This document shows, piece after piece, positions 7,668-30,126 of a stretch of 64,000 bases of DNA. The notes below the pieces were generated by a model, which saw only the letters and a program-made list of their open reading frames with translations, searched no databases and was not told the DNA's origin. Source of the DNA: Paludibacteraceae bacterium. Its GTDB lineage: Bacteria; Bacteroidota; Bacteroidia; Bacteroidales; Paludibacteraceae. The position numbers and the translations under genes were made by a program. Numbering within the stretch: the stretch's first letter is position 1; every line of letters begins with the position of its first letter. Location: contig JAKSKV010000012.1 in the NCBI GenBank assembly GCA_024401555.1, forward strand, positions 1-64,000, given 5' to 3'.

Positions 7668-8042
7668 ATGGGAACACGGGCTATTTTGACTATTTTGATG
7701 CTGGTGGTTTCGAATGTCTTTATGACCTTCGCATGGTATGGTAATTTGAAATTGCAGGAGATGAAGATCTCGTCCGATTGGCCGTTGATCTTGGTTATCC
7801 TCTTTAGTTGGGGCATCGCTTTGTTTGAATACTGTTTTATGATTCCCGCCAACCGTATGGGGTCCCAAATTATGGGCGGACCTTTTTCCTTGGTTCAGTT
7901 GAAGGTAATCCAGGAGGTGGTCTCCATTATGGTTTTCTCTGGAATCGTCACATTGGTCTTCAAGGGACAGTCGTTCCATTGGAACCATTTGGCTGCCTTT
8001 GTCTGTCTGGTATTGGCTGTCTATTTTGTTTTTAAAAAGTGA
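7668..8042 (+). CDS. DUF486/DMT-type small membrane protein
   Basis: A 124-residue integral membrane protein with four hydrophobic segments (about 5-25, 37-58, 75-97 and 105-122). It matches the DUF486 (DMT_6) family in length and in features such as F-x-W-Y-G-x-L near the first helix, a central W-G-I-A-L-F-E-Y segment and N-R-x-G. The family is related to drug/metabolite transporters, but no substrate is established. It starts about 60 nt after the lipoprotein gene; no terminator is seen between, so co-transcription is possible. Confidence 0.88.
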   Translation: MGTRAILTILMLVVSNVFMTFAWYGNLKLQEMKISSDWPLILVILFSWGIALFEYCFMIPANRMGSQIMGGPFSLVQLKVIQEVVSIMVFSGIVTLVFKGQSFHWNHLAAFVCLVLAVYFVFKK

Positions 8043-8104
8043 AAAATTTGACGTTTTATGCGATAGTTGCCGGCGAAATGTTTCCTCATTACGACACAAA
8101 TGAC

Positions 8105-8112
8105 TAATTTTG
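8105..8112 (+). promoter_or_regulatory. Promoter -7 box of the first type-B surface protein
   Basis: TAATTTTG matches the -7 box. Transcription would start near 8119, which argues for the start codon at 8179 rather than an upstream one at 8128. Confidence 0.65.
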
Positions 8113-8178
8113 CGGCGTTGAATTGATGTGTTTGATTGCGATTGGTCTTTTATTTGTTGCATAAGCGATTCCGATAGT

Positions 8179-11100
8179 ATGGATAAGACTTCTGGTAAGG
8201 TGATATTTCGTCGAATAGGGCTTTGTTGCCGACTTCTAATTGCCGCATTGGCACTGCCTTTTGCGGGGGAAGCGTATGGTCAGTCTTGTGACTATTTGGC
8301 GGGTGCCACCTCCTTCGCTCCAACCAAGGCGCACGCATCGGATGCTTTCTATGCGTTGAGTGATGTGGTGATAGAGGGGCCGATGGAAAACCACTTGAGC
8401 GTGAGCTCATTCTTGGCGAAACGAGTGGGGCAGTTCCATCCGGATTCCACCTGTTTCGTCTATGCTGTGACTGATTCCGCTCCACGATTGCTGCCTGGTT
8501 GTCGTCCATTGAATCGACCTGCCTTGGTGACTACGCTGAAGTGTGATCCCTATACCAAATTGTTTGCTTTTACGATCAATAACCTACAGCCCAATAGTAC
8601 GGTGAGAATATCCGGAAGTTTGGGAGTGTTGGTCTCCGGTCAGGATAAAAGATTCTCCCAAGCGGGTTCGTTCTCTGACGAGAAGAGTAGTCGCCTTCGT
8701 ATTGGAACATCCAAACGAATGGTGGATTTGGATGTGCCCTATTCTAAAGGAGATGTCGATTTCGATTTTGAATATCACTTAGGTGCTTACGAGACAAGCG
8801 TTGTTTTTCAGGTGATGACCAGCGATAAATTCAATCCGGACGATTGTATCGCCATTTATCAGGTGAAGGTGGAGGGTTGTTTGAAACCCAAGGTGAAATC
8901 TTCATTAGGTCTCTCCGTATGCCAAGGCGAGAAGGATTTGATTAGTTTGAACAAAGAGTATTTCGCCTCCTCCTATGCTTGGATGAAATCGGTGGATGGT
9001 GGTGCCAATTGGTTCTTGACCAGTACCGCTAAGAATCTCTACGAGGAGATTGAAAATGAACGGGTGATGTATTACTGTGTGATGGACGGAATGACATCCG
9101 ATACCATTACGATCTCACCCTCTCGTTGTTGCGAAAACGAAGAGGGAAACAGTATGTCCAGATTGACTGTTTTTTACGAGAATTTTGGACATTTCGTGGA
9201 TGATCATCTCTATGTGGACAGTAAAGGCGTGGAGCATGAGACGAATGAACTTTGGGCGCCGATGCGTGCCAATACCAGCTTCTCGATGCCGGATATGAAT
9301 GCGTTTGACCCATACGGTCAAATCGATGAAGGTTATGGTGTCATTGTGCCAACGGTGAATGGATTCCCCTCCACCTATTCTTGGACCACGTGGATGACGG
9401 GTGTAGTCACAGACCACTCCTATGCGATAGAGGGATTCGACAACAGTGCGTGCCTCTTCATCAACACCGAGCCAGGGTTCCACGATGTGATCTTCTCGAT
9501 GCAGGTGGATGACTTGTGCCCGAATAAACCTTTCTATTTTGAGACATATATTGCCAATATGGCGGCCAACGGATCCGCTCCTGAGATTACCCTGAACATC
9601 CGTAATGCGGCGACCGGATCGCTGATCGGCACCTCGACGGAGGTGGCGTATGAAGGTGCGGGATGGGTGCGTGTCCATATTGATGATTTGGAGTTGGAAC
9701 AGGGTGTATCATCGGTGGTATTGGAGATTGTCTCCACAGGAACGAAGGATGACCAACACGACTATTCCACTTGTACCAATGCGAACAGTCCGATGAGATA
9801 TTGGTTGTGTGGCAACGATTTGGCCATAGACGATATCCGTTTTATGGTTTGTTCACCGCCCGCTGTGGATCTTTATTCGAACATCTCATCTTATACCGGC
9901 GATACGGTCATTTGCACCAATTCCGATTTTACTATATGGTCGGAACTCAGTTCGATGCTGACCTCTTTCTATAAGGGCGACCTCAATTTCATTTACCAGC
10001 AAAGTGATAATGGAAAGGATTGGCGAAACATCTCGGAAATGCTCTCGTCAAAAGGAATTGTGCCGGGAAATAAGTTCACGTTCAACACAGCGACATTCCC
10101 GGCAGACACCAATTATTTCAGGGTGATTGCGGGTTCTGCGGTCTCTCTGACGCCACTGCTTTCCGATCCGACGCTCGCCAATTACGACGATGCGTGTCGG
10201 GATTACTCCGTCTCCAAACCTATATCGATAGTCAGGGAGGGTGAACTCTTCTTGGGTGCCACCGCTAAATCATCCGTTTGCATGGGCGATGGATTTGTCC
10301 TTGTTCCTCCGACCATCACGAAAGAATTGTCCACTTGGGCGTGGATGAAGGATGGCGCGGTTGTGGAGAGTACCAACTTGGACAATGCAGTTCGCTCGTA
10401 CAAGTCTGTCAAAGAGGACGAAGAGGTGAACTCGTACCTCTTCCTTGCCATGACTACCAATGGTTGCATGGGCAAACGCAAATATGAGGTCTCCCTTCGT
10501 CCGGAAGATCAGTGTGAAGTTGCCCGTCCTTGGGTGAAGGACACAAGCGTCTGCTTGGGAGAACCTTTGGATTTGAATCGTTTGGCCCAAGCGGAAGATG
10601 AAGCCTATGAATTGGTTTGGTACGCCTCGGCAACCCCAACTGGCGAGGGTGAGGGTACGCCTCTTCTGACGGCACCATCTGTAGATACGGATAGTTTGGC
10701 GATACAAACCTTCTATGTGTCCCAGCGTAATAAGTATAATCCATCCAGGGAGAGTGCACTCTCTGAACTCCATGTCACAGTGGGTCAGCGTGCGCCTATG
10801 GGCTCTTTTGTCATAGAAGAGGCAGGACAGAGGGAGGAACTTAATATTGATACCGAGCATGCGGAGATTTACAGTTGTGGAGGGGCGATACGTGTCGTAG
10901 CCAACTTCAAAGACATGGAGACGAATCCAATTGCTGATTATACTTGGTATAAAGGAGAACAAAAATTACATACCGGTTCCGTCTTGCTTTTGGAGGAGAA
11001 TCGGGTAACAGAGGATCAAACCTATCGTTTGGAGTTTATGAACGGTTGTGTCACGAAGGTTGAATTGACGGTACATTATCGTCCGTTGTTCGTCGCACCC

Positions 11101-12888
11101 GTGACAGAACCTACAACGGTTGCTGTTTGTCCGGGCAAGCCATTCCAGACAGGCGTGAAGATTTCCCCTTCGGAGGGTGGCACGCCTTCGTTTACTTGGT
11201 TTAGAAATGGTGCGGAGATAGAACCGCTTGATGATGCTGCTTTGACCTCGCCTCTCTTGGTGGTGGATTCCGTTACAGAGAAGGAGTCGGGAAGATACAG
11301 TGTGGCGGTAGTGAGAGATGGCTGTTCCGCCAAGGTGGTGTTGGATAGCCTGAGCCTATTGCCTGCGGTTGTGACACCGCTCAATGTCGATACGATTGTG
11401 AAACGTAACTCGGATGTGACGCTTCGTCTGAACATCATCCAACCTGTGGGTGGGGCAGGTGTCGCTTGTGAGTGGAAGGGAACGTCACCTATCGCTTCAA
11501 AAGCCGATTCCGCCTCTTTGAAACAGGTGACGACAGACCAAAAGTATATGGTTACGTTGACGGCTGACGGCTATTGCGCCACCACAGCTAAGGTCAATGT
11601 TTGGGTAGATGCTATGCTGACGATGAAGAGCTCCCTGACGGAATATGTCTGCGGAACCGATACGGCGGAGCTTGTTGTGGATACGACAGGTACAGGACAG
11701 ATGCGTCATTTCGACTGGCAAACTTCGCTCTCCGTGTGGGAGTTGGATGGCCTTGATCGACGAGATGTCACCCAACAAATGGTCTGGGTGGATGGAAAGT
11801 CTCATCTGATGGTGGTGCCTACCAGAGACCTCTCCTATGAAATTCTGTATACTTATGGCACGGATTCTGTCACGGATGTCAAGCGTGTGGAGGTGATTAC
11901 TTCTAATAGGGTGGTGACACCGGTTGGTTTGGCCGTATGTGAGGGTGATACCGCTGAAATTGCTTTGACGAATATCTCTCCGAAGGAGGCTGTCGTTCAG
12001 TGGATGACGGATCCGACTCTTTTGGGTGCGGCGAATGCCACAACGGTGAAGGTAGTGCCCCGTTACAAACGCAATGCGGAACACCATTCGATAGCGGCCT
12101 ATCCATTCATTGTGAGCAATGAGCGTTGCCATCATACCGATACGATGGTAGCTACGGTTCGTGTTGATGAGGTTTTGACTGGAGAGTTGGAGGGTGAAGA
12201 AATCGTTTGTGAGGGTGAAAGCGTTTTGTTGAGCGCCTCCAGATATGGGGCTTCGAAGCATACTTGGGTGTCTGATGGCGACACGGTCTCCTCTGCAGTC
12301 TCTATGAAGTTGACGCCTACGAAATCCGTCGATTACAAACTCTATATGGAGAGAGGTCTTTGTCGTGCGACCGATTCCATCTCGTTGACACTCAAACCCA
12401 ATCCTGTGATCGTCCGTGTGGATTCGGTTGGAATCCGTAGTCGGGAGGTTGTTGTCAAGGAGGGGACAGGAGAGGCACCGTACTTTTATTGGGCGGATGA
12501 CCGTACCGAGAGATCCTATTCTCCAATCATCGAAAAACTGACTATCTTTACCCATACGGCTCATGTGGAGGATCAAAATGGCTGCCGTGCGGATTATATC
12601 TTCTCGATAGACCGACAGGGTATCCTCATCCCGGAATATTTCTCTCCGAATGGGGATGGTGTGAACGACCGTTGGGTGATTGATGATTTGGTGGATTATT
12701 ATCCGGATGCGGAGATAAAAATCTTCCATCGAAGCGGTAAATTGCTGAAGGTGATGAGGGGAGCTGATTTGGGTTGGGATGGCTACTACAATGGGCTTCC
12801 TGCGCCGGAGGATGATTATTGGTACATCATCAATGTCCCTGAAATCGGTGAGTTCTATACGGGACACTTCCTTCTTTTGAGAAAATAA
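8179..12888 (+). CDS. Large T9SS type-B surface protein (gliding-motility-type CTD), paralog 1
   Basis: A secreted protein of about 1569 residues. I chose the ATG at 8179 because it begins a normal signal peptide (basic MDKTSGKVIFRR, hydrophobic core, A-Y-G-Q) and lies a sensible distance after the promoter box; an in-frame ATG at 8128 would add 17 non-signal residues. After an N-terminal beta-rich region come many Ig-like modules, most opening with a C-x-G-(E/D) motif (such as SVCQGEKD, SVCLGEPL, VCPGKPF, AVCEGDTA, VCEGESV). The C-terminus carries a type-B T9SS domain: IPEYFSPNGDGVND ... GWDGYYNGLPAPEDDYWYII ... GHFLLLRK. It should be exported by T9SS as an adhesin or matrix protein. It is paralogous along most of its length to the next gene. 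Confidence 0.88.
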   Translation: MDKTSGKVIFRRIGLCCRLLIAALALPFAGEAYGQSCDYLAGATSFAPTKAHASDAFYALSDVVIEGPMENHLSVSSFLAKRVGQFHPDSTCFVYAVTDSAPRLLPGCRPLNRPALVTTLKCDPYTKLFAFTINNLQPNSTVRISGSLGVLVSGQDKRFSQAGSFSDEKSSRLRIGTSKRMVDLDVPYSKGDVDFDFEYHLGAYETSVVFQVMTSDKFNPDDCIAIYQVKVEGCLKPKVKSSLGLSVCQGEKDLISLNKEYFASSYAWMKSVDGGANWFLTSTAKNLYEEIENERVMYYCVMDGMTSDTITISPSRCCENEEGNSMSRLTVFYENFGHFVDDHLYVDSKGVEHETNELWAPMRANTSFSMPDMNAFDPYGQIDEGYGVIVPTVNGFPSTYSWTTWMTGVVTDHSYAIEGFDNSACLFINTEPGFHDVIFSMQVDDLCPNKPFYFETYIANMAANGSAPEITLNIRNAATGSLIGTSTEVAYEGAGWVRVHIDDLELEQGVSSVVLEIVSTGTKDDQHDYSTCTNANSPMRYWLCGNDLAIDDIRFMVCSPPAVDLYSNISSYTGDTVICTNSDFTIWSELSSMLTSFYKGDLNFIYQQSDNGKDWRNISEMLSSKGIVPGNKFTFNTATFPADTNYFRVIAGSAVSLTPLLSDPTLANYDDACRDYSVSKPISIVREGELFLGATAKSSVCMGDGFVLVPPTITKELSTWAWMKDGAVVESTNLDNAVRSYKSVKEDEEVNSYLFLAMTTNGCMGKRKYEVSLRPEDQCEVARPWVKDTSVCLGEPLDLNRLAQAEDEAYELVWYASATPTGEGEGTPLLTAPSVDTDSLAIQTFYVSQRNKYNPSRESALSELHVTVGQRAPMGSFVIEEAGQREELNIDTEHAEIYSCGGAIRVVANFKDMETNPIADYTWYKGEQKLHTGSVLLLEENRVTEDQTYRLEFMNGCVTKVELTVHYRPLFVAPVTEPTTVAVCPGKPFQTGVKISPSEGGTPSFTWFRNGAEIEPLDDAALTSPLLVVDSVTEKESGRYSVAVVRDGCSAKVVLDSLSLLPAVVTPLNVDTIVKRNSDVTLRLNIIQPVGGAGVACEWKGTSPIASKADSASLKQVTTDQKYMVTLTADGYCATTAKVNVWVDAMLTMKSSLTEYVCGTDTAELVVDTTGTGQMRHFDWQTSLSVWELDGLDRRDVTQQMVWVDGKSHLMVVPTRDLSYEILYTYGTDSVTDVKRVEVITSNRVVTPVGLAVCEGDTAEIALTNISPKEAVVQWMTDPTLLGAANATTVKVVPRYKRNAEHHSIAAYPFIVSNERCHHTDTMVATVRVDEVLTGELEGEEIVCEGESVLLSASRYGASKHTWVSDGDTVSSAVSMKLTPTKSVDYKLYMERGLCRATDSISLTLKPNPVIVRVDSVGIRSREVVVKEGTGEAPYFYWADDRTERSYSPIIEKLTIFTHTAHVEDQNGCRADYIFSIDRQGILIPEYFSPNGDGVNDRWVIDDLVDYYPDAEIKIFHRSGKLLKVMRGADLGWDGYYNGLPAPEDDYWYIINVPEIGEFYTGHFLLLRK

Positions 12889-12914
12889 CTTCTATCGACT
12901 GAGGTAGTTGTATG

Positions 12915-12950
12915 AGAAGCGACGCTCTGAGGGTGTCGCTTCTTTTTTTT
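12915..12950 (+). terminator. Terminator between the two tandem surface-protein genes
   Basis: AGAAGCGAC (12915-12923) pairs with GTCGCTTCT (12935-12943), followed by a run of T to 12950. Confidence 0.9.
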
Positions 12951-12985
12951 CGTCTTGTATTAGTATGAAAAACTTACTTTTAAAA

Positions 12986-13015
12986 TTGTTTATATGTTCT
13001 TTTTCCCTATTTTTG
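12986..13015 (+). promoter_or_regulatory. Promoter of the second type-B surface protein
   Basis: TTG at 12986-12988, a 19-nt spacer and TATTTTTG at 13008-13015 fit the Bacteroidota promoter; the ATG is 41 nt downstream. Confidence 0.78.
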
Positions 13016-13056
13016 TAATATAGTATTTTTTATAGGGTAATGAAAACAATGTTACT

Positions 13057-16000
13057 ATGAGGATATTCAGAATATTTAAGGGCTTATTGACATCGATGGT
13101 GTTGGTAGCCGTGCCGATGTTGTCGCAAAGAGCGTCCGCGGCGATTGTTGCTGGTTCTGATTTTGAACCGACGGTATATCCAGGAGATTCCATCCCTTGG
13201 GATTTCCCTTCCGCAATTCAGTATGGAATGTCGGGCAACTCCTTCTCCTCCAATGCGACTTACTCCGGTAATGGTGAGAACTATCGTGTGGCGGAAGATT
13301 TGGACTTTGTCTATTGCTTGACCAATAATCCAAGTACGTTGAATGAGGATTACATGGAGGCGGACGAGTATATGTGCGTCGTGCAGTATGCGGGAAAAAT
13401 GAAGGAGATGACCTCTTTCTTCTCCTACAAAGTGAATGGTTTGAGGCCGGGATCTAAGTTCACCGTGACAATCGAGTATTATGTTTTGAACACGGAGACC
13501 GATACGAAAAAACTTTTCGGTTATACCTATACGCCAACTGTGGATTTCAAAGCTTGCATCAATCCGAATGAGTATGGAAGCAACGAGGCCTATGATGCAG
13601 GGGGCGGTTCTGTGAATGTGGCATGCAAAGAGTTCCAAACCAAGCAAACCGTCACTTTAAAGGGTGTTGTCGCTGCGGGAGAGTCGACGATCGACATCAA
13701 TCTCCTTTATGGTTATAATGGTAAAGCGGAGGGTATTGCCCTTGGTATCAGCAATATCATCGTGGATGGTACGCCTGACCCTAAGATAGCGTCAAGCCAA
13801 GGCTTGGAGGCTTGTAAGGGTGAACAGACGCTTTTGTCGTTGGATAAAGATTATAATGCGAAGAAATACTCTTGGCAACACCGTGTCGGCGGTTCATGGG
13901 AGGAGATCGGAACCTCCAAGAACTTGCTCTATGAGATGAGTCAAGATGAGACCTTCCGCTGTTTGGTGGATGGCGTCGAGTCCAATGAATTGGAGGTGAA
14001 GGCTATCGTTTGTTGTGAGATGAATGGCAAGCCTGCTTCCCGAAAGACTTTGTTGTGGGAGACCTTCGGACACTTCTCCGATCCGCATACCTATATCGAC
14101 CGTGACGGAAATGAATCCACCACGCCTGCAGCGTGGCCTGCTTATAGAGCGGACGTCTCTTATGATTTGCCGGGAAACCAATTTGATGATGGTAGTGGCG
14201 CTAAGTGTACAAGTTGTAAGTCGGGGCAAGTGGCAGATGGTGCCATCAATGATGGATTCTATGCTATCGTGACGCCTACGGCCAATGGGTATTACACCTC
14301 TCAGAGCATCTATCAGACCGCTAACTGGATGAAGGCAGTTACAACAGACCACACTTCGCTTATTACCGGAGAAAAGAATGGTGGTGCGCTCTTCATCAAT
14401 GTCGATTACTTCTTTACGGGTGTTGTCTTCGAGGCGGAGTTCCCGAATGTATGTACAGGTAAGACGGTCTTTTACGAGACATGGATCGCCAACTTGAGTG
14501 GAGGAACCTCCACGAACCCTATTGTGACGGTGAACATCGTTGATGCGGAGACAGGAGAACTTTTGGCCCAAGAGAAGGATGTGGAGGCTGTTCAAGGCAA
14601 GGGCTGGTATGGTATCAAGGGAAGCTTCTTGTTGGACGGTACAGGTACGAAAAATGTGAAACTTCAGGTGTTGAGTACCAATGGTTCGCACTCCACCAGC
14701 AATGATTCTTACTGGAGGAATGGTAATGACTTGATCATTGATGACATCAAGTTCATGGTTTGCTCTCCTCCTTCATTGGAGGCTTACTCCGATATCAACA
14801 CCTTTGCGAAGGATTCCACCATCTGCTCTGATATGGACTTTACTATTGAGTGTCCGACCAGTACTTTGTTGAACGATTTCTTCGGTAAAAACCAGAAGTA
14901 TTTGTTCCAGTATAGTGGAGATAAGGGCAAGAATTGGAAGAATATCTCCGGCCTTGAGGCGGATAGCAAGTATGTGATCAATACGGGTGACTATGCCGAG
15001 GATGTCATGCAGTTTAGGGTGATTGTAGCGACTCCGGATGTTTTGAGCGATTTTCTTGCTCAACCGAATGGTGCGGACTTCGAGGATAACTGCCGTAACT
15101 ACTCCATTACGGAACCGTTCACCATTACTCGTGCAGGAGATTTGGATTTCGGAGCGACCTTTAACACTGCCGCTTGTCAGGACGACAAGGTGGATTTGAA
15201 GGCGCCAGCAGTAGCTGCTGAACTCAACAGTTGGTGGTGGACCGAGGAGGATGGAACTACGGTTGTGGATGGTTACAGTCCATCGGATGATGAGAACAAT
15301 TGGACATTGTCCTTCTTGAAGGGTGCCACGGAGGATAAGGTGGACGAGGTGGAGACCTATTACTTCTACGGATTGTCCGCCTCTGGTTGTCAAGGAAGAC
15401 GCAAGTATGTGGTGGATGTGAAGCCAGGCGTGAAGTTCGATTATGACAAGGTCGAGGAGTGTGGTAAGACAACATTCTCCATTACTGACAAGAAACCTGC
15501 CACCGCCTCTTTTGTATGGACCTACGATGGAGAGGATTACGATGGTGATGAGTTTGTTTATGATAGCGAGTTCTTGTCTTTGGGAGAGGATCCTAAGGAG
15601 AAGAAGATTGCCCTGTTGTCGGGTACCGCTACAGGTTATTGCGCAACTACGGATAATGCATATCAATTTATTTTGAAGACCATTCCTGATGCTCCGACAG
15701 CTGCCAATCCATCTTTGGATTTTGTGGTGGAGGCAGATCCTGTCTCTGTGGCGAAAGCCGCCATTGCGGAAGATGATATGACTTTAGAGTGGGTGAAAAC
15801 TACCGCTGACGCCGAGGTTGAACCTACATCGGGATGGAGCAGCGATGAACCATTCGTTCCTAGAACTGAGGATGCGACCTACTACTTCTTCGTCCGTCAG
15901 GTGAATGAGGACGGTTGTGCGGGTCCTGCCATTAAGGTACACGTTACTGTTAGCTCCTCACCACTACCATTGGCGATCGATACGATCGTCTGCGTGGGAT

Positions 16001-19000
16001 CGGATGTTGATTTGAAAGATATCGTCAATACGACCGACGACATCTACGAGTTGCGCTGGTACGAGAAGGATGGCAAGCCGGACGGCACGGGATCCACCGA
16101 GCCATTCACGGTGAAGACCGACAAGCCGGCGGAGTTGAAGTACTATGTCACACAACGCAGCACCAAGTCGCCATATCCGGAGAGTAAGATGAAGGAGGTG
16201 AAGGTGACCGTGATCGGCGTTGACGTGCCAGACACGACAGGCAACACCTACCACTACTGCGCGGGCGACGAGCCTGTTGATTTGAAGGCTAAGCTCAGAA
16301 AGGATCAAGACAAGTTCTACTACGCCGACCAACTCCATTGGACGTTGGACGGAGGCGAAGAGACGGACGAGTTCACGGCGGTGAAGACCAAGGTGGATAA
16401 GACGACGACCTACGAGTACAGCGTGTACCAAAGCTACACGATCAACAACAAGAACCAGGATGTATGTAAGGGCGATGTGTTGACGTGGAATGTCGAGGTG
16501 ACCTACGTTCCTGAGTTGGAGACGAGTCAGGTTACCTACATGAGGGCGGATGCCGACAAGAACGGCAACTTCGACAAGAACCTGATGGAACAGAGCGAGA
16601 ACGGCGTGATCAGCGGCTACGACAGGAGCATGAACCTGTTGTGGTACGAGGCGAACTGTGAGGATATGATCGGCAACGGCAAGACCGCTCCGACACCGAA
16701 GGTGGATGTAGACGGCGCGGCCGGCATCGACCAGGAGCGCACCTACTGCGTGAAGCAGGAGATCGACGGATGCCTCAGCAAGGGCACTCCAGTCAACGTC
16801 ATCATCAGCGACGCGCCGAAACCGTTGATCACCGACTACGTCTATTGCCGCGGCGACGAGGCAGGCAAGCTGACCACGAAGCCGGACATGAGCATCAAGC
16901 CGACCGCCACCTATGTGTTGAAGTGGTACGGCAACGGAGAGAAGAACGACTACACCGACCTGAAGATCAGCGGCGACGAGGGCCCTAATCCGACGACGAG
17001 CATGCGCGCCGGCGAGAACGGCAGAAGCGAGTACTACTACTACGTCACCCAGACGGAGATGGTTGACGGCAAGGAGGGCGCCGAGAGTAACAAGACGGAG
17101 ATCAAGGTAGTCGTATACGACCAGCCAAGGATCGAGATAGACAAGAGCGAGCTGAAGACCGTATGTAAGCCAGCCAAGGTGGACATCAGCAAGAGCGTCT
17201 CCTTGAGCAACGAGGTGGCGAGCCTCAGCTACGAGACCAAGTACTACAAGGACGCCACGCTCAGCGAGGAGCTTGGCAGCACGAAGGTCGAGGAGAGCGG
17301 CGAGTACCAGGTGGTAAAGAGCTTCTCCGTGACAGCCAAGGCCAACGACGCGACCTGCGTCTCCGATGCAACCGAGATTCCGGTGACGATAGACACGCTC
17401 CGCGTGGAGGTGGAGAACGTGACGACCTGCCCTAACATGGACGCCACCTTCACGGTCAACGTGAAGACCAACACCAAGGGCGACGTGAAGTACACCTGGA
17501 ACGGACTCACCGAGTCAGATCCGAACGGAGGCATCAGCACCTCCGCCACATTCACGACCAAGAAGTTCGCGAACGCCGACTACGGCCAGGAGTTCAAGTA
17601 CTCGTTGAAGGTCACTGCGGGCGAGTGCTCGTTCGAGGCCGACACGATGAAGGTGACCTTGGGCGAGGGTCCTGTGAAGGGAACGATGACCGTCACGGAG
17701 GAGGGCAACGCCGAGGAGGATAACGAGTTCAAGGATACGAAGTTCAACGAGTTCTACAGCTGCGGCGGTCCGTTGACCGTGACCGCGGCGTACGTTGACG
17801 AGGACGGCAAGGCCATCAGCGACTACGTGTGGTACGACGGAACGAAGAAGGTGGGCGAGGGCGCCGACCTGAATTTGCCGGAGAACAGGGATTCGGAAGA
17901 CAAGACCTACCGTCTGGAGTTCACCAACGGCTGTCCAACGAGCGTGACGATCACGATCCACAACCGTCCGATCAGCGTGACGGCGGTGAGCATGAAGGAC
18001 ATCAAGCTCTGCGAGGGCGAGAAGTTCAACACGATCGTCAAGAGCGAGTCGCCTAAGTCGGAGAAGCCTGACTTCAAGTGGTACCGCAACGGCGAGGAGA
18101 TCACCACGGGCGGCGGCGTGTCGTTGGACAACGGCAAGACGGAGCTCACGATCGACAAGGTGGCCACCAAGCATAACGGACGCTACAGCGTCGTGATGAC
18201 CAACAGGGGATGTACCTCGAAGACGAACGTTGACAGCCTTGTTGCGATGCCATACATCGTTGCCACGGAGAAGATCGACACGATCGTACCTCGCAACTCG
18301 AACCCAAGCATCAAGTTGGATGTGACGGTACCAGCCGGCGGATCGGGCGTCGAGTACGACTGGAAGGGCACCAACGGCGAGAAGGAGAGCACTAACCCGC
18401 TCGTCCTCAGCAACGTGGTAGCCGACCACTACTACAACGTTGTGATGAAGGCGGAGGACCACTGCGACGCGAAGGCGACGGTTGACGTCAAGGTAGACGC
18501 CAAGCTGACGTTGAAGACCACATTGAAGGATACGATCTGTACGGGCTTGAGCGCCGTACTCGTGATAGACACCACAGGCACGGGCAAGATGCGCCACGAG
18601 GATTGGGAGCGCTCCCTCACTGTCAGCGTGACGAGCGGCGGCGTGACCGAGGACTTGACCTCGTCGATCATCCGCGACGGCGACATGCTCAAGCTGACGG
18701 TCTCACCGAAGAACTTGGCCACCTACGAGATCAAGTTCCACTACGGCGAGCAGGATACCGTCGCGACCGAGGTGCTTGAGGTTATCCCGGCCATCAAGGT
18801 CACCATACCGGATCCAGTCACCATCTGCGCCGGCGAGACGGCCGACATCGAGTTGACCGACATCACGCCGGACGGAACGACCGTCCGCTGGGTGGCCGAC
18901 GAGACCATCGTCTCCGGCGACCTCGATTCACCGGCGATCACGGTTCAACCGGAGTACAGGGGCGGAACGGCGCACCAATACCAATACGGCTACAAGTTCG

Positions 19001-19785
19001 TGGCGACGAACAGCTTCTGTAACGGAAGCGAGACGATGACGGCGTACATCTACGTCGACGAGCCTCTCACGGGCGAGATCCTTGGCGACAAGGTGATCTG
19101 CGAGACCTTCAATAGCCGCATCGACGCGTCAAGCTACTCCGCGTCGGTCTATAAGTGGAGCGTAGACGACGAGCCAGTCAGCAACAGCGCGTCCATGGTA
19201 GTCTCACCGAAGGCGACCACCACCTACAAGCTCTCCATGGAGAGGGGCGTATGTAAGGCGGAAGACGAGTTCGTGTTGACGGTGAAGAGCAATCCGGTGA
19301 TCGTCGCTATGGACTCCGTCGACATCAGGGAGCGCGAGACCATCCTGAAGGACGGCACGGGCGAATCACCGTTCAGCTACTGGGTGGACAACACCGAGTC
19401 GTTGAAGTCAGAGGATCCTATCCTCCGCGACTTGAGCTTCACGAAGCACATCGCGCACGTTGTTGACGTGAACGGATGCCGCGGCGAGTTGGAGTTCGAG
19501 ATCGAGGCTCCGAAGATCTTCATCCCAGAGTACTTCTCTCCAAACGGCGACGGAAGGAACGACGGATGGGTAGTCAAGGAGTTGGTTGATGTCTATCCGA
19601 ATGCGTTGGTGACCATCTACGACCGTTTCGGTAAGGTGGTTGCTCAGTTCCCAGGCGCACAAGCCGAGGGATGGGACGGAACCTACAACGGCAATCCATT
19701 GCCTTCGACCGACTACTGGTATGTGATCGACATCGAGGAGATCGACAGACAGTTCAAGGGTCACTTTACTTTGATTAGACAGTAA
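13057..19785 (+). CDS. Giant T9SS type-B surface protein, paralog 2, with a recoded internal segment
   Basis: A 2242-residue secreted protein with an N-terminal signal peptide (about 1-28, ending S-Q-R-A-S-A-A), beta-rich N-terminal modules, many Ig-like modules opening with C-x-G motifs, and a C-terminal type-B T9SS domain (IPEYFSPNGDGRND ... GWDGTYNGNPLPSTDYWYVI ... GHFTLIRQ). It aligns with the upstream gene in order: the F-G-H-F ... module, the S-C-G-G module, the P-R-N-S-N module, the T-G-T-G-K-M-R-H module, and the CTD. Relative to that paralog it has several hundred extra residues in the middle (about 1060-1540). From about 16020 to 19560 the DNA changes to GC-rich codons (GAC, AAC, GGC, AAG, ATC), unlike either flank, while the protein homology continues. 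Likely a surface adhesin or filament protein. Confidence 0.88.
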   Translation: MRIFRIFKGLLTSMVLVAVPMLSQRASAAIVAGSDFEPTVYPGDSIPWDFPSAIQYGMSGNSFSSNATYSGNGENYRVAEDLDFVYCLTNNPSTLNEDYMEADEYMCVVQYAGKMKEMTSFFSYKVNGLRPGSKFTVTIEYYVLNTETDTKKLFGYTYTPTVDFKACINPNEYGSNEAYDAGGGSVNVACKEFQTKQTVTLKGVVAAGESTIDINLLYGYNGKAEGIALGISNIIVDGTPDPKIASSQGLEACKGEQTLLSLDKDYNAKKYSWQHRVGGSWEEIGTSKNLLYEMSQDETFRCLVDGVESNELEVKAIVCCEMNGKPASRKTLLWETFGHFSDPHTYIDRDGNESTTPAAWPAYRADVSYDLPGNQFDDGSGAKCTSCKSGQVADGAINDGFYAIVTPTANGYYTSQSIYQTANWMKAVTTDHTSLITGEKNGGALFINVDYFFTGVVFEAEFPNVCTGKTVFYETWIANLSGGTSTNPIVTVNIVDAETGELLAQEKDVEAVQGKGWYGIKGSFLLDGTGTKNVKLQVLSTNGSHSTSNDSYWRNGNDLIIDDIKFMVCSPPSLEAYSDINTFAKDSTICSDMDFTIECPTSTLLNDFFGKNQKYLFQYSGDKGKNWKNISGLEADSKYVINTGDYAEDVMQFRVIVATPDVLSDFLAQPNGADFEDNCRNYSITEPFTITRAGDLDFGATFNTAACQDDKVDLKAPAVAAELNSWWWTEEDGTTVVDGYSPSDDENNWTLSFLKGATEDKVDEVETYYFYGLSASGCQGRRKYVVDVKPGVKFDYDKVEECGKTTFSITDKKPATASFVWTYDGEDYDGDEFVYDSEFLSLGEDPKEKKIALLSGTATGYCATTDNAYQFILKTIPDAPTAANPSLDFVVEADPVSVAKAAIAEDDMTLEWVKTTADAEVEPTSGWSSDEPFVPRTEDATYYFFVRQVNEDGCAGPAIKVHVTVSSSPLPLAIDTIVCVGSDVDLKDIVNTTDDIYELRWYEKDGKPDGTGSTEPFTVKTDKPAELKYYVTQRSTKSPYPESKMKEVKVTVIGVDVPDTTGNTYHYCAGDEPVDLKAKLRKDQDKFYYADQLHWTLDGGEETDEFTAVKTKVDKTTTYEYSVYQSYTINNKNQDVCKGDVLTWNVEVTYVPELETSQVTYMRADADKNGNFDKNLMEQSENGVISGYDRSMNLLWYEANCEDMIGNGKTAPTPKVDVDGAAGIDQERTYCVKQEIDGCLSKGTPVNVIISDAPKPLITDYVYCRGDEAGKLTTKPDMSIKPTATYVLKWYGNGEKNDYTDLKISGDEGPNPTTSMRAGENGRSEYYYYVTQTEMVDGKEGAESNKTEIKVVVYDQPRIEIDKSELKTVCKPAKVDISKSVSLSNEVASLSYETKYYKDATLSEELGSTKVEESGEYQVVKSFSVTAKANDATCVSDATEIPVTIDTLRVEVENVTTCPNMDATFTVNVKTNTKGDVKYTWNGLTESDPNGGISTSATFTTKKFANADYGQEFKYSLKVTAGECSFEADTMKVTLGEGPVKGTMTVTEEGNAEEDNEFKDTKFNEFYSCGGPLTVTAAYVDEDGKAISDYVWYDGTKKVGEGADLNLPENRDSEDKTYRLEFTNGCPTSVTITIHNRPISVTAVSMKDIKLCEGEKFNTIVKSESPKSEKPDFKWYRNGEEITTGGGVSLDNGKTELTIDKVATKHNGRYSVVMTNRGCTSKTNVDSLVAMPYIVATEKIDTIVPRNSNPSIKLDVTVPAGGSGVEYDWKGTNGEKESTNPLVLSNVVADHYYNVVMKAEDHCDAKATVDVKVDAKLTLKTTLKDTICTGLSAVLVIDTTGTGKMRHEDWERSLTVSVTSGGVTEDLTSSIIRDGDMLKLTVSPKNLATYEIKFHYGEQDTVATEVLEVIPAIKVTIPDPVTICAGETADIELTDITPDGTTVRWVADETIVSGDLDSPAITVQPEYRGGTAHQYQYGYKFVATNSFCNGSETMTAYIYVDEPLTGEILGDKVICETFNSRIDASSYSASVYKWSVDDEPVSNSASMVVSPKATTTYKLSMERGVCKAEDEFVLTVKSNPVIVAMDSVDIRERETILKDGTGESPFSYWVDNTESLKSEDPILRDLSFTKHIAHVVDVNGCRGELEFEIEAPKIFIPEYFSPNGDGRNDGWVVKELVDVYPNALVTIYDRFGKVVAQFPGAQAEGWDGTYNGNPLPSTDYWYVIDIEEIDRQFKGHFTLIRQ
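16020..19560 (+). other. GC-rich, codon-shifted segment inside the giant surface-protein gene
   Basis: I counted 36/60 G+C in 16861-16920 and 37/60 in 17401-17460, against 29/60 in 13741-13800 of the same gene. Asp is mostly GAC, Asn AAC, Gly GGC and Lys AAG inside, while GAT, AAT and GGT are common outside. The left edge falls near the start of an Ig-like module (IDTIVCVGSDVD); the right edge falls just after F-S-P-N-G-D-G in the CTD. The edges are estimated by eye to within about 50 bp. Confidence 0.8.
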
Positions 19786-19792
19786 TAGAAAC

Positions 19793-21442
19793 GTGATGAA
19801 GGAGATGGGTGACGAATCTGCTAAGTTCTTTCATCATTTTCAAAAAAGCATTGAGGGAATAGCGTTGCCTAAGCAGTTCACTTTCCCTTTCAGTTATGAA
19901 CCTCATCAGTTGTCTGTCATGGCAACTGATGAGGTTTTGCGTTACATCACCGCTCAATCCGCATGGCACAAGGAGTTGTCGTTGGGAAAAATGTTCGGTG
20001 TCTTGGTTGCGCGAAACCAACGTGGCGACATTGGTTTTTTCGCCGCCTTTTCTGGACAGATAGCAGGCAGTTATCAGCATTCCTATTTTGTTCCTCCTGT
20101 TTATGATCTCTCCCAACCGGGTGGTTTTTTTAGGGAGGAGGAGCGTGCCATTTCAACCATTAATCAGGAGGTGGAGTCGATCCTTCAATCGGAAACCTAT
20201 TTGCGATTGTGCCGATCTATAGAGACACAAAAGTCGTTCTGCGAACAATTGACTCTCTCTTGGAAACAACGACTGGAGGAGGCCAAGGCGAAGCGAGACC
20301 ACATGAGAAGTGAAGGAGTCTCCACGGAAGAGGAGGCCGCTTTGATTCGTGAAAGTCAGTTCATGAAGGCAGAGTACAAAAGAGAGCGACAAGCGGAAGA
20401 ATCGAAACTTGAAACTTTACGTCGTGATTTAGAGGTGTATGAACAGCGAATCGCGGCTTTGAAACAGGAACGAAAGAGTCGATCCGCTCAGTTGCAGAAT
20501 AGACTTTTCGACCAATTTGTATTCTACAATGCGGAGGGTGACAAGGATACCTTATGCGGAATATTCCGTCGGGCCACGTTGCCTGTGCCCCCAAGTGGGG
20601 CGGGAGAGTGCGCCGCTCCGAAACTGTTGCAGTACGCCTACCTTCATTGTTATCAACCACTCTGTATGGCCGAGTTTTGGTGGGGCGAATCTCCTAAATC
20701 AATTGTGCGGGTCCATGGCCATTATTACCCGGCATGTAAATCCAAATGTGAACCGATTCTTCAGTTTATGTTGCAAGGATTGGATGTGGAGCCCTCTCCG
20801 CTTATCAACACCCCCGTATCGTTGGATTTGGAAATCGTGTGGGAGGATGCCTCTTTGTTGATTCTTCGTAAACCTCATGGGGTACTCTCCGTGCCGGGTA
20901 AGAGTTCCGCCCCATCTGTATTATCATTCGTTAGGGAGCGCTATCCGGAGGCGACAGGGCCTATGGTAGTTCATCGCTTGGATATGGCCACTTCAGGGTT
21001 GCTGATGGTTGCAAAGACGAAGGAGGTGCATTGCGCCCTTCAAAAGCAGTTCGAAAACCATACGATAAAAAAAGAGTATGTGGCCTGGTTGGAGGGTGTG
21101 TTGCCCCAAGATGAGGGTGATATTGTTCTGCCGATTTGCCCTGATGTGGAGCATCGTCCTTGCCAAATGGTCAGTGAAAAGTATGGAAAGTATGCGGAGA
21201 CGCACTATGAAGTGGTGGAGCGAAGAGGAGATCGGACGAAGGTGTTCTTCTATCCCAAGACAGGCCGTACCCATCAGTTGCGTCTGCATGCCGCTCATGT
21301 CTTAGGACTGAATGCGCCTATTGTAGGAGATGAATTGTATGGTACAAAGTCGGACCGCCTCTATTTGCAAGCTCGAAAAATTGAGTTCGTTCATCCTATC
21401 ACGCACCGTGTGGTAATCGTGGAGATTCCTTGTGAATTCTAA
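19793..21442 (+). CDS. RluA-family pseudouridine synthase with coiled-coil N-terminal extension
   Basis: A 549-residue fusion typical of Bacteroidota RluA-like enzymes, which isomerise uridine to pseudouridine in rRNA or tRNA. The C-terminal catalytic domain (about 335-549) carries H-R-L-D-M-A-T-S-G with catalytic D397, then R-T-H-Q-L-R-L-H. The N-terminal 330 residues include a long charged coiled coil (about 120-235) and Cys-containing segments; this region's role is not known. The start is 8 nt after the stop of the giant surface-protein gene and no promoter box is evident in between, so it may be read from upstream. The RNA target cannot be assigned from sequence. A weak hairpin follows. 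Confidence 0.88.
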   Translation: MMKEMGDESAKFFHHFQKSIEGIALPKQFTFPFSYEPHQLSVMATDEVLRYITAQSAWHKELSLGKMFGVLVARNQRGDIGFFAAFSGQIAGSYQHSYFVPPVYDLSQPGGFFREEERAISTINQEVESILQSETYLRLCRSIETQKSFCEQLTLSWKQRLEEAKAKRDHMRSEGVSTEEEAALIRESQFMKAEYKRERQAEESKLETLRRDLEVYEQRIAALKQERKSRSAQLQNRLFDQFVFYNAEGDKDTLCGIFRRATLPVPPSGAGECAAPKLLQYAYLHCYQPLCMAEFWWGESPKSIVRVHGHYYPACKSKCEPILQFMLQGLDVEPSPLINTPVSLDLEIVWEDASLLILRKPHGVLSVPGKSSAPSVLSFVRERYPEATGPMVVHRLDMATSGLLMVAKTKEVHCALQKQFENHTIKKEYVAWLEGVLPQDEGDIVLPICPDVEHRPCQMVSEKYGKYAETHYEVVERRGDRTKVFFYPKTGRTHQLRLHAAHVLGLNAPIVGDELYGTKSDRLYLQARKIEFVHPITHRVVIVEIPCEF

Positions 21443-21457
21443 TTCGTCTATTTTATT

Positions 21458-21471
21458 AGCGTTCAAACGCT
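21458..21471 (+). terminator. Possible weak terminator after the pseudouridine synthase gene
   Basis: AGCGT (21458-21462) pairs with ACGCT (21467-21471) around a TCAA loop, followed by CTTTCTT. The stem is short and the T run is broken. Confidence 0.35.
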
Positions 21472-21536
21472 CTTTCTTGTGGCATTTTGTCTCCCCAAGT
21501 TGTGTTTTTCCTATGTATATATTGGAATTTTATTCT

Positions 21537-21544
21537 TAATTTTG
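21537..21544 (+). promoter_or_regulatory. Promoter -7 box of dxs
   Basis: TAATTTTG lies 40 nt before the dxs start; no good upstream TTG at the usual distance was found. Confidence 0.55.
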
Positions 21545-21584
21545 TAATTGGCAAAATGTATGAGTTTTTTAATAGTTAGGTGAT

Positions 21585-23480
21585 TTGGAATCTTTATTAA
21601 ATAGCATTGAATATCCCTCCGATTTGAAGAAATTGGAAGAGTCTCAGTTGCCTCAATTGTGCGATGAACTGCGTCGTTTCATCATTGATGAATTATCTCA
21701 CAATCCAGGCCACTTGGCATCCAGTCTTGGTGTGGTGGAACTGACGGTGGCGATTCATTATGTATATGATATGCCAACGGATAGTTTGGTTTGGGACGTG
21801 GGGCATCAAGCCTATGGCCATAAGATTTTGACGGGACGCAGGAAACTTTTCCATACCAATCGCCAGTTCGGAGGAATCAGTGGATTCCCTAACCCTGCCG
21901 AGAGCGAGTATGACTCCTTTGTTGCGGGACATGCCTCCAACTCCATTTCTGCCGCTTTGGGAATATCCATCGCCGATGACCGATTGAAGAAGGATGGGGC
22001 GCATACGGTCGCAGTGATCGGTGATGCCGCCATGTCGGGCGGTTTGGCTTTTGAGGGGTTGAACAACGCCTCTTTCTATCCCAATAATCTCTTGGTTGTC
22101 CTGAATGACAACCATATGGCGATCGATGATCCTGTAGGTGGTATGAGTGAATATTTGGTTCGCCTAACCACCTCCGAAACCTATAACAAGTGGCGCTACC
22201 GCCTCTATCGATTGATGAAGAAGACAGGGTGGTTAAGCGATGATCAAAAGGGTAACCATATTCGTCTTCACAACTCATTGAAGGCAGCCATTGCTAATGA
22301 ACATAACCTTTTCGAAGTGTTGAATCTCCGGTATTTCGGCCCTGTGGATGGCCACGATGTCATCAATCTGGTAAAGATTCTCCGTTCGATCAAGGACTAT
22401 AAAGGTCCGAAGGTGTTGCATATTAAAACGAAAAAAGGAAAAGGTTTCAAACCTGCCGAGGAGGCCGCCTCGATTTGGCATGCGCCTGGTAAGTTCAATA
22501 AAGAGTCCGGCGAGAGGGTTATACCTCCTATCACCAAGGATACGCCGCCTCTCTTCCAGGATGTCTTTGGACACACTTTGGTGGATTTGGCGAAGATGAA
22601 TGATAAGGTTGTGGGTGTAACGCCCGCCATGCCTTCGGGTTGTTCTATGTCTTTCTTGATGCATGAGATGCCTGAACGGGTGTTTGACGTAGGTATTGCG
22701 GAGGGACATGCAGTGACCTTCTCCGCTGGTTTGGCGAAGGGTGGTTTGATGCCTTTCTGTAATATTTATTCCTCTTTTATGCAACGTGCGTATGACAATG
22801 TCATCCATGATGTCGCATTGCAGAATTTGGATATGGTGATGTGTTTGGATCGTGCGGGTTTGGTGGGGTCGGATGGTGCCACTCACCATGGAGCTTTTGA
22901 CTTGGCCGCATTCCGTTGTGTGCCAAACCTTACCATCGCTTCTCCGATGAATGTGGTGGAACTTAGAAATCTGATGTTTACGGCCTCTCAGCCTGGTCAT
23001 GGACCATTTATGATACGTTATCCAAGAGGAAAGGGTGTCTTGTTGGATTGGCATGGAGAGATGCGGGAGATGCCTGTCGGTAAGGGTGTCTGTTTGAAAA
23101 AGGGAGATTCCTCTTTGGCGATTCTGTCGCTCGGTCCATTGGGCTTTGCCGCAAAAAAAGCTGTGGAGCGTGCGGAGGCAGAGGGAATGAGTGTTTCTCT
23201 CTACAATATGCTTTTCCTCAAACCTTTGGACGAAGCCTTGTTGGATGAGGTGGCATCCCGCTATCAACATGTGATTACGGTGGAGGATGGTGTGGTCAAC
23301 GGTGGTTTTGGTTCCGCCGTCTTGGAATATTTCGCCGACCACGAATATTCGGTGAAGGTGAAACGCATCGGCATCCCGAATCTCTTCGCGACGCATGGTA
23401 CGCAGGAGGAGTTGTATCATCTATACGGTATGGATGCTGAGGGCATCTACAATGCGATTACCGCTATTCTCAAAAAATAG
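21585..23480 (+). CDS. dxs: 1-deoxy-D-xylulose-5-phosphate synthase
   Basis: Condenses pyruvate and glyceraldehyde 3-phosphate to DXP, the first step of the MEP isoprenoid pathway; needs thiamine diphosphate and Mg2+. The 631 residues match the family's normal length. The ThDP-binding stretch is G-D-A-A-M-S-G-G ... L-N-D-N-H-M-A-I. The conserved Glu is in V-G-I-A-E-G-H-A-V, and the transketolase C-terminal domain is complete. The start codon is TTG: an in-frame TAG sits at 21573-21575, no ATG or GTG lies between, and the protein N-terminus ([14 protein letters not shown]) matches other DXS proteins from here. The following gene begins 6 nt after its stop. Confidence 0.95.
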
Positions 23481-29136: not shown

Positions 29137-30126
29137 TTAATTTCTGTAATATCGTGTGTATTTCTTTTTGCTTCTACCATAGTTGGCGAAACAGCCTTTG
29201 CCTTTGGTCCTGATTTTGAATTCAAGTCCTAACTCATGCGTGCCGAAACTGCCGTGTCTGAGGTTGGCGAATATGTAATCGTAGGAGTAGTAGATGCTGA
29301 AAGGCCCATAAGAGAAGCCGGCGATGAAACCCACCTCGTCTGGAATTTTGTAGGTGGCTCCCACATAAAAGAGATCGGCTGGGTGGTTGTCGTACTCATT
29401 TACGTAGTAGTAGTACAACGATAATTGGTGTTTCATCACATCTTTTGAGTTGGTCTTCCGGTCACCGTCAAAGTAGTAAAAGGCGTAAGCGGGAGCCAAC
29501 CTCCACCACTCGGAGGTCTGGAGGTTATAGTTCATGAACCCGTAGAAAGTTCGGTTCATACTGACATTGTCGGTTCCCTTCAAAAGGTGCATACCTGCTG
29601 CGCCAAACTCGAAGTTCTGGATGAGGATTTCGAAGCCAGCGTCGATGTCGGCTGCGTTTCCATGCTCAAGATCCTCCACGATCATCGCGATGTTTTGGTT
29701 GTCGTGTTTGTCGTCGTTGACAATTGCATTGGCATCGTAACTTTTGCTGATCATGCCGGCTGCCACACCCATGTTGAGGTAGGAGTCGTCACCGATTGGG
29801 ACACAAAAGGCATAGTCCACCTTGGGGTTCACGACTCTTTGATAGCCGATTTTGTCTGCCAATACGTTGACGCCGACTTGGGAGTGGGCGCCTACGAAAA
29901 AGTATTTGGCCGAGAAAAATAGATCTTTGGGCATTCCCTCCAAGTGGGTCCACTGTAATCTTCCTCCGGTTTGTATGGTGGCGTATTGCAGTTCTGGAAT
30001 GTATCCGGGGTTGAAGAAACTATATTGCAACTGTTTGTTCGTGAAGAAGGGAACCTCTTGTGCGAACATCGTTGTGGCCATGGCCATCATGGCGATGGTA
30101 TGTATGATTCTCTTTTTCATTTTCAT
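29137..30126 (-). CDS. PorP/SprF family type IX secretion system membrane protein
   Basis: A 329-residue outer-membrane barrel of the PorP/SprF family. The signal peptide (1-22, M-F-A-Q) is followed by the family opening with F-F-N-P-G-Y in the first strand, then barrel strands through the end. PorP/SprF proteins act with type-B CTD cargo: SprF is needed for surface export of the adhesin SprB in Flavobacterium. Here the gene's ATG overlaps the stop of the 3840-residue type-B protein by 4 nt (ATGA), indicating translational coupling and a dedicated partner. The C-terminal ~20 residues are basic (R-S-K-K-K-Y-T-R-Y-Y-R-N). Usual length for the family. Confidence 0.93.
   Translation of the reverse strand: MKMKKRIIHTIAMMAMATTMFAQEVPFFTNKQLQYSFFNPGYIPELQYATIQTGGRLQWTHLEGMPKDLFFSAKYFFVGAHSQVGVNVLADKIGYQRVVNPKVDYAFCVPIGDDSYLNMGVAAGMISKSYDANAIVNDDKHDNQNIAMIVEDLEHGNAADIDAGFEILIQNFEFGAAGMHLLKGTDNVSMNRTFYGFMNYNLQTSEWWRLAPAYAFYYFDGDRKTNSKDVMKHQLSLYYYYVNEYDNHPADLFYVGATYKIPDEVGFIAGFSYGPFSIYYSYDYIFANLRHGSFGTHELGLEFKIRTKGKGCFANYGRSKKKYTRYYRN

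Follow-up and report, generated by a model that had tools for sequence, protein, structure and literature searches.

Analysis of the first 64,000 nucleotides of contig JAKSKV010000012.1 from a Paludibacteraceae genome (the window) revealed that a giant surface-protein gene, termed gene B, contains a GC-rich block of codons within a tract that it shares almost identically with a second gene, gene A, of the same genome. Comparison with congeneric genomes leaves very little doubt that the A/B pair evolves in concert by recurrent ectopic gene conversion. A GC bias of this conversion is the best explanation for the codon shift, and we consider it moderately probable.

Gene B (13057..19785, forward strand, as are the other features of this locus) encodes a T9SS-type surface protein of 2242 residues with its own head, an Ig-like stalk and a CHU_C sorting domain (Pfam matches to CHU_C at aa 2155-2237, Ig_7 and I-set). 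The codon style shifts within the reading frame. In overlapping windows of 100 codons, the G+C content of third codon positions (GC3) is 0.43-0.61 up to approximately position 16050, 0.77-0.91 across 16057-19506, 0.76 at 19357-19656 and 0.65 in the final 129 bp. A two-edge likelihood (change-point) fit placed the GC3-rich block at 16030..19536 with a log-likelihood gain of 134.8 and edge support intervals of 16012-16048 (5') and 19495-19636 (3'), while the largest gain among 200 codon shuffles, run on a coarser grid, was 11.2. The codon-shifted block that a preliminary description had placed at 16020..19560 is thus real, and GC3 does change at the claimed edges. GC3 amounts to 0.856 in the fitted block vs 0.539 in the rest of the gene. 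The background was taken from the window and 20 further stretches of this genome, picked for CHU_C genes rather than at random, which gave a mean GC3 of 0.554 (sd 0.097, 99th percentile 0.867) for 983 windows of 100 codons; GC3 exceeded 0.72 in 31 of these, 24 of which lie within the block or its second copy. The shift is limited to third positions, as GC1 and GC2 are 0.492 and 0.401 in the block vs 0.47 and 0.42 in the head. The neighbouring paralog P0002 (8128..12888, 1586 aa), for which we saw no near-identical copy in the genome, served as a control; its GC3 is about 0.51 throughout, and its GC1 (0.55) and GC2 (0.42) are not lower than those of the block. In agreement with the preliminary description, the block protein aligns with this paralog (42% identity over aa 1531-2241). 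Tandem repeats could be dismissed as the cause of the composition, with just two short arrays present in 8000-22000.

The source genome (G000; 3.52 Mb, 159 contigs) belongs to a rumen-type bacterium. A whole-genome DNA search detected two full copies of the block and five short matches to its tail. The tract homologous to gene A (15882..19786) matches contig C80 (31557-35461) without gaps at 99.28% over 3905 bp. All 28 differences between the copies fall into a 5' transition zone (15891..16077), which is followed by a homogenised core of 3709 bp (16078..19786) that is 100% identical in both genes and ends one base past the stop codon. Upstream of the tract, the gene-B-specific N-terminal part (13057..15881, GC3 0.546) has no DNA-level match in gene A, and the orthologous heads in congeners show a GC3 of about 0.3-0.7. 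Gene A is an open frame of 2336 aa with a different N-terminal part (GC3 0.41) and the same GC3 step. Both proteins combine Ig-like modules with a terminal CHU_C T9SS sorting domain according to Pfam (57.8 bits for gene B and 60 bits for gene A; cut-off 27), and no Pfam family was recognised in either head at the E-values used. Membership in the CHU_C family predicts export and surface attachment, and the likely role of the two genes would be to present two different heads on a common stalk at the cell surface. Across the CHU_C C-terminal signal domain (CTD; 19519..19770), GC3 drops while the two copies remain identical. The homologs P0002, C94 and C90 of G000 are diverged, share the same module types and have no near-identical copy that we could see; their GC3 is about 0.34-0.66 with no step to 0.85.

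The history of the two genes was reconstructed from the congeneric genomes. At the DNA level, gene A matched the corresponding congener loci on both of its flanks and gene B on its right flank; for the gene-B left flank in the window this comparison gave no match. A tree of 12 rows for aa 865-985, directly upstream of the block, places the A copies in one clade and the B copies in another across species (support 100/98). Within the block the picture is reversed. For aa 1015-1090 (11 rows) the A/B labels require five changes, three of them forced by starred branches: A and B of G000 are identical, and the copies of G007 (100/99) and of G009 (93/95) join each other. Copies of G009 also join for aa 1050-1140 (nine rows, 100/100) and those of G010 for aa 1100-1350 (five rows, 97/99). 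The exception is gene B of G010, which at aa 1015-1090 is nearer to gene A of G011 (0.97) than to gene A of its own genome (0.84), the two G010 copies being unjoined in that tree. Apart from this case, both trees and identity matrices show paralogs that are more alike within a genome than orthologs are between genomes. The separation upstream together with the within-species pairing inside the block indicates that the duplication predates the species and that homogenisation took place independently in several lineages.

Assembly records of the relatives carry the same signature. In G009 (MAG Tb.RUG.361, Paludibacteraceae) the block is a contig of 3427 bp that shares exact 127-base overlaps with four contigs, two at its upstream and two at its downstream end, and the coverage given in the record titles is 41.11 for the block contig vs 21.04 and 21.25 for the upstream contigs of A and B. 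The G009 block contig is two collapsed copies. Fourteen contig-end pairs (A/B, second pair and other tails) were chosen by hand from eight genomes, and 13 of them showed exact overlaps of 55, 77, 87, 127 or 141 bases; the remaining pair, G010 C24/C29, was unoriented and uninformative. Exact overlaps of assembler length are expected where an assembler halts at a repeat border. The block tail at G010:C51:1-812 is 93.8% identical to G007:C8:4-815 over 812 bp, compared with 75% further upstream in gene B, in a part made up mostly of head, and judging by these identities the stretch was likely exchanged between congener species. As a separate observation, about 300 bp behind a gene of a second pair in G011 resemble the stretch upstream of gene A (77% in G000, 95% in G010; L172:5335-5634, L059:7489-7770), which is perhaps a repeated element between these genes.

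The block composition is also found in the congeners G001, G007, G009 and G010, where block GC3 is 0.75-0.95 and the block protein 62-69% identical, with a GC3 of 0.28-0.69 in the heads of the same genes. At this protein identity, synonymous sites should be near saturation, and the high block GC3 therefore points to a standing force that maintains the composition. In four species the 5' GC3 edge tracks the A/B identity edge, species by species. In residues of the window protein, the identity and GC3 steps are found at 963 and 989 in both copies of G000, at 1057 and 1059 in both copies of G009, and at 1021 and 1053 in both copies of G007; in G010 the identity step is at 1018 and the GC3 step at 991 for B vs 1045 for A. 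The support intervals of the GC3 step are disjoint between G000 (986-995) and G009 (1054-1080 for B, 1016-1073 for A). Rows without a partner copy gave GC3 steps at 978 (G001_B), 1062 (G005_A) and 980 (G011_A), and the G015_B row, with a log-likelihood gain of 3.2, was too short to place its step reliably. The preliminary description had set both edges at module borders. This is correct for the 3' GC3 edge (19536), which lies at the start of the CTD and about 250 bp inside the identity edge, but the 5' edge differs between species, and its species-specific steps rule out a fixed module border. In all five homologs that were assembled whole, GC3 dips in the last CTD bin (0.36-0.49).

Windows of 50 codons were grouped by copy identity for the mid-GC genomes G000, G007, G009 and G010 and small extra pairs of G010 and G001 (67 windows). 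Mean GC3 was 0.504 below 60% identity (n=10), 0.534 at 60-80% (n=5), 0.810 at 80-95% (n=19) and 0.827 at 95% or more (n=33), corresponding to a Spearman coefficient of 0.56, or 0.49 over all 82 windows with the AT-rich genomes included, neighbouring windows being non-independent in both cases. Identity does not account for everything. In G002, G006, G008 and G012, where the tract ends alone are readable, windows of at least 95% identity have a mean GC3 of 0.443 (n=8, range 0.28-0.69). The flank genes of these genomes have a GC3 of 0.354, 0.318, 0.482 and 0.325, respectively, and the shared tract ends stay near this level in G006 (0.34), G012 (0.28), the first pair of G002 (0.30-0.41) and the first window of G008 (0.47). 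Higher values were seen in one small shared tail of G002 (0.58-0.65) and in the last window of G008. The homologs assembled whole in G007 (C19) and G010 (C3) have a stalk GC3 of about 0.65 vs 0.3-0.5 in the head, so part of the GC3 step does not derive from sharing. AT-rich genomes G004 and G014 contain a gene B with a related head and a different stalk, assembled whole, and GC3 is flat near 0.3; in G003 such a gene runs into the contig end. In a second pair of giant T9SS-type genes, G011:C144 (L213, 8000-14070) and G011:C235 (L214, 1-8244), identity is mostly 0.35-0.57 over the first 1450 alignment columns and climbs to 1.00 beyond them, with GC3 rising from about 0.3 through 0.5-0.75 to 0.80-0.89. 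The GC3 rise is partly ahead of the identity rise, again suggesting that identity is not the whole story. In other genomes, G010 and G007 among them, contig ends likewise coincide with edges of this family.

Codon classes were defined by comparing 2048 ribosomal-protein codons with 126 sample ORFs (46,727 codons; 44,812 without Met and Trp). The preference of highly expressed genes for GGT and GCT, noted in the preliminary description, was borne out by the ribosomal proteins (GGT 0.59, GCT 0.56), as was its view that translational selection explains the block poorly. The share of optimal AT-ending codons is 0.067 in the block, compared with 0.143 in the sample and with 0.152 and 0.257 in the two heads; GC-ending codons avoided by ribosomal proteins reach 0.323 in the block, 0.218 and 0.118 in the heads and 0.200 in the sample. 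With optimal codons down and avoided codons up, translational selection for the block is ruled out. GGT falls to 0.04 in the block and GGC rises to 0.74. CCC (0/53), GGG (0/89) and CGG (0/32) are absent from it and are nearly absent from ribosomal proteins and heads as well, while CCT and GGA remain at 0.21 each. Such a pattern would fit a drive from A/T towards G/C combined with ongoing avoidance of a few bad codons. ACG accounts for 0.72-0.75 of Thr codons in the blocks of the relatives (block codons alone counted); this is a choice between G and C and hence not predicted by GC bias alone. Replacement sites between the block and the three same-genome homologs revealed no pull towards GC (224 GC-side to 258 AT-side, p 0.13; P0002 33:61, C94 114:117, C90 77:80), with 53:36 in the head. 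Arithmetically, the rise in GC3 from about 0.54 to about 0.86 equals a log odds, or scaled bias, of about +1.6, and a weak bias of this size could be masked at replacement sites by selection on the protein.

Taken together, we favour a reading in which genes A and B are ancient paralogs that join different heads to a common Ig-like stalk and T9SS sorting domain. Ectopic conversion, repeated over time, keeps stalk and sorting-domain DNA near-identical within species while it diverges between species. Where the copies differ, heteroduplex repair may be biased towards G:C, and at weakly selected synonymous sites this bias would lift the GC3 of the tract in opposition to the codons that highly expressed genes prefer. 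The 5' border of the tract would mark the limit of the remaining A/B homology, and the codon border would move with the homology border between species. This reading as a whole, ectopic A/B conversion plus GC bias as the source of the composition, we judge to be probable. The broader proposition, that bacterial GC-biased conversion can be strong enough to override translational selection and replace synonymous codons along a 3.5-kb tract inside a gene where two paralogs stay identical, has in our estimate slightly better than an even chance. The GC bias is supported by the 5' GC3 edge that follows identity, the higher GC3 of windows with greater copy identity, the contrast between optimal and avoided codons, the similar second pair and the small G002 tail. 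It is weakened by unraised GC1 and GC2, the lack of a replacement-site pull, the 3' edge at the CTD start, the near-flank GC3 at other tract ends, the differing A and B steps of G010, the raised stalk GC3 of whole-assembled homologs, the early GC3 rise in the second pair and the ACG preference.

Several of these weaknesses are what would be expected if synonymous selection on the stalk, through mRNA structure, the pace of decoding during export or similar, favoured GC-ending codons and conversion merely equalised the copies. We regard this as unlikely, though a good deal less so than the other alternatives. The restriction of the shift to synonymous change, the GC-rich stalks of the whole-assembled homologs, the 3' edge at the CTD, the continued absence of CCC, GGG and CGG and the bias towards ACG all speak for it. 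However, such selection would have to favour the codons that ribosomal proteins avoid, the 5' GC3 edge varies between species together with the identity edge, and C94, C90 and P0002 carry the same modules at ordinary GC3 in the same genome. We know of no selective agent whose effect would end where recombination ends.

The import of a cassette from a relative of higher GC, as the preliminary description had proposed, followed by its copying into the two genes, appears very improbable. Its sharp composition edges and the one stretch with between-species exchange would suit an import, but the congeners have similar block GC3 despite their protein divergence. Moreover, a DNA-level search through 200 family genomes (best two candidates each scored) found the block in nine, all of this genus (one of 33 genera), and plasmid and phage collections held no matching record. 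Among the matches listed for 61 genomes, non-genus protein matches of at least 500 residues overlapping the block are at most 41% identical, and short CTD matches outside the genus reach up to 58%. A one-off import is rejected on the basis of the congener GC3, the within-species A/B pairing, the genus-restricted DNA matches and the empty plasmid and phage search. Recombination is indeed involved, as had been proposed, but its source is a paralog in the same genome and it recurred in several lineages. An assembly chimera or duplicated consensus scarcely deserves consideration: the 3.7-kb perfect repeat is beyond short-read resolution, and this head and this tail may have been wrongly joined without any effect on the composition result, but three of the four A/B flanks match congener loci, 28 edge differences tell the two G000 copies apart and the collapsed block of G009 has doubled coverage.

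In mammalian histone and Hsp70 genes, paralogs are more alike than orthologs and converted genes gain GC. Mammalian gene pairs in concerted evolution resemble the A/B pair in the greater likeness of paralogs, but are eukaryotic (PMC2720389, as far as the portion available states). Whether bacterial gene conversion is GC-biased is disputed, with Lassalle et al. 2015 (PMC4450053) arguing for and Ely 2021 (PMC8153448) against it in the available portions of these papers. The former uses the contrast of optimal and non-optimal codons to separate conversion bias from codon selection. Its cases, as described there, share with ours a higher GC3 with more recombination, an increase in GC-ending non-optimal codons and a decrease in AT-ending optimal ones, but contrast recombinant with non-recombinant core genes, while here the recombination takes place between paralogs and inside a single open reading frame, where its edge could be mapped and GC3 changes by about 0.3 (PMC4450053). 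Conversion between paralogs that declines with divergence is described for Mycobacterium tuberculosis, where, according to the accessible text, a test of GC content as a possible predictor showed no association with how often conversion occurs, a result that counts against the GC bias (PMC13061034). The Porphyromonas gingivalis genes rgpA, kgp and hagA likewise encode large T9SS-exported Bacteroidota proteins and carry identical repeats, both inside single genes and shared among them, at which short-read assemblies break; they differ in having CAD and DUF2436 modules instead of an Ig-like stalk, and the sections available draw no connection between the shared regions and GC content (PMC5266723). 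Rhs genes have a G+C-rich core and low-G+C tips (67.7% vs 46.4% in one Serratia locus), but their exchanged tips are C-terminal and conversion bias in the core is not treated in the part available (PMC2935791). Among the open-licence papers listed on GC-biased conversion (bacteria, paralogs) and on T9SS gene conversion, titles and abstract beginnings yielded no description of GC-biased conversion between bacterial paralogs.

The A/B locus makes the disputed question testable. Gene B is its own control, as converted and unconverted stretches stand under one promoter in a single gene and their border differs in position from species to species. An abrupt GC step inside a gene is no proof of foreign origin, and blocks of this kind are prone to being fragmented or lost in short-read genomes. 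If the GC bias is true, tracts of twin genes would be self-contained natural experiments for GC-biased conversion, and other GC-rich shared cores, such as those of Rhs genes, may owe their GC to conversion rather than to foreign origin.

Additional repetitive or related genes were recorded in G000. An array of repeats of about 90 bp each, 84-88% alike (G000:C57, L064:2673-4162), overlaps an open frame of 882 aa. The reverse strand of the window encodes a protein of 3840 aa with Ig_7 and CHU_C (30123-41645) whose GC3 is 0.45-0.73 in 100-codon windows, with no such block. Finally, a contig of 3218 bp (G000:C9:3128-3214, L144) ends in a CTD that is 83-86% identical to other family tails and is perhaps the edge of a second pair in G000 itself.
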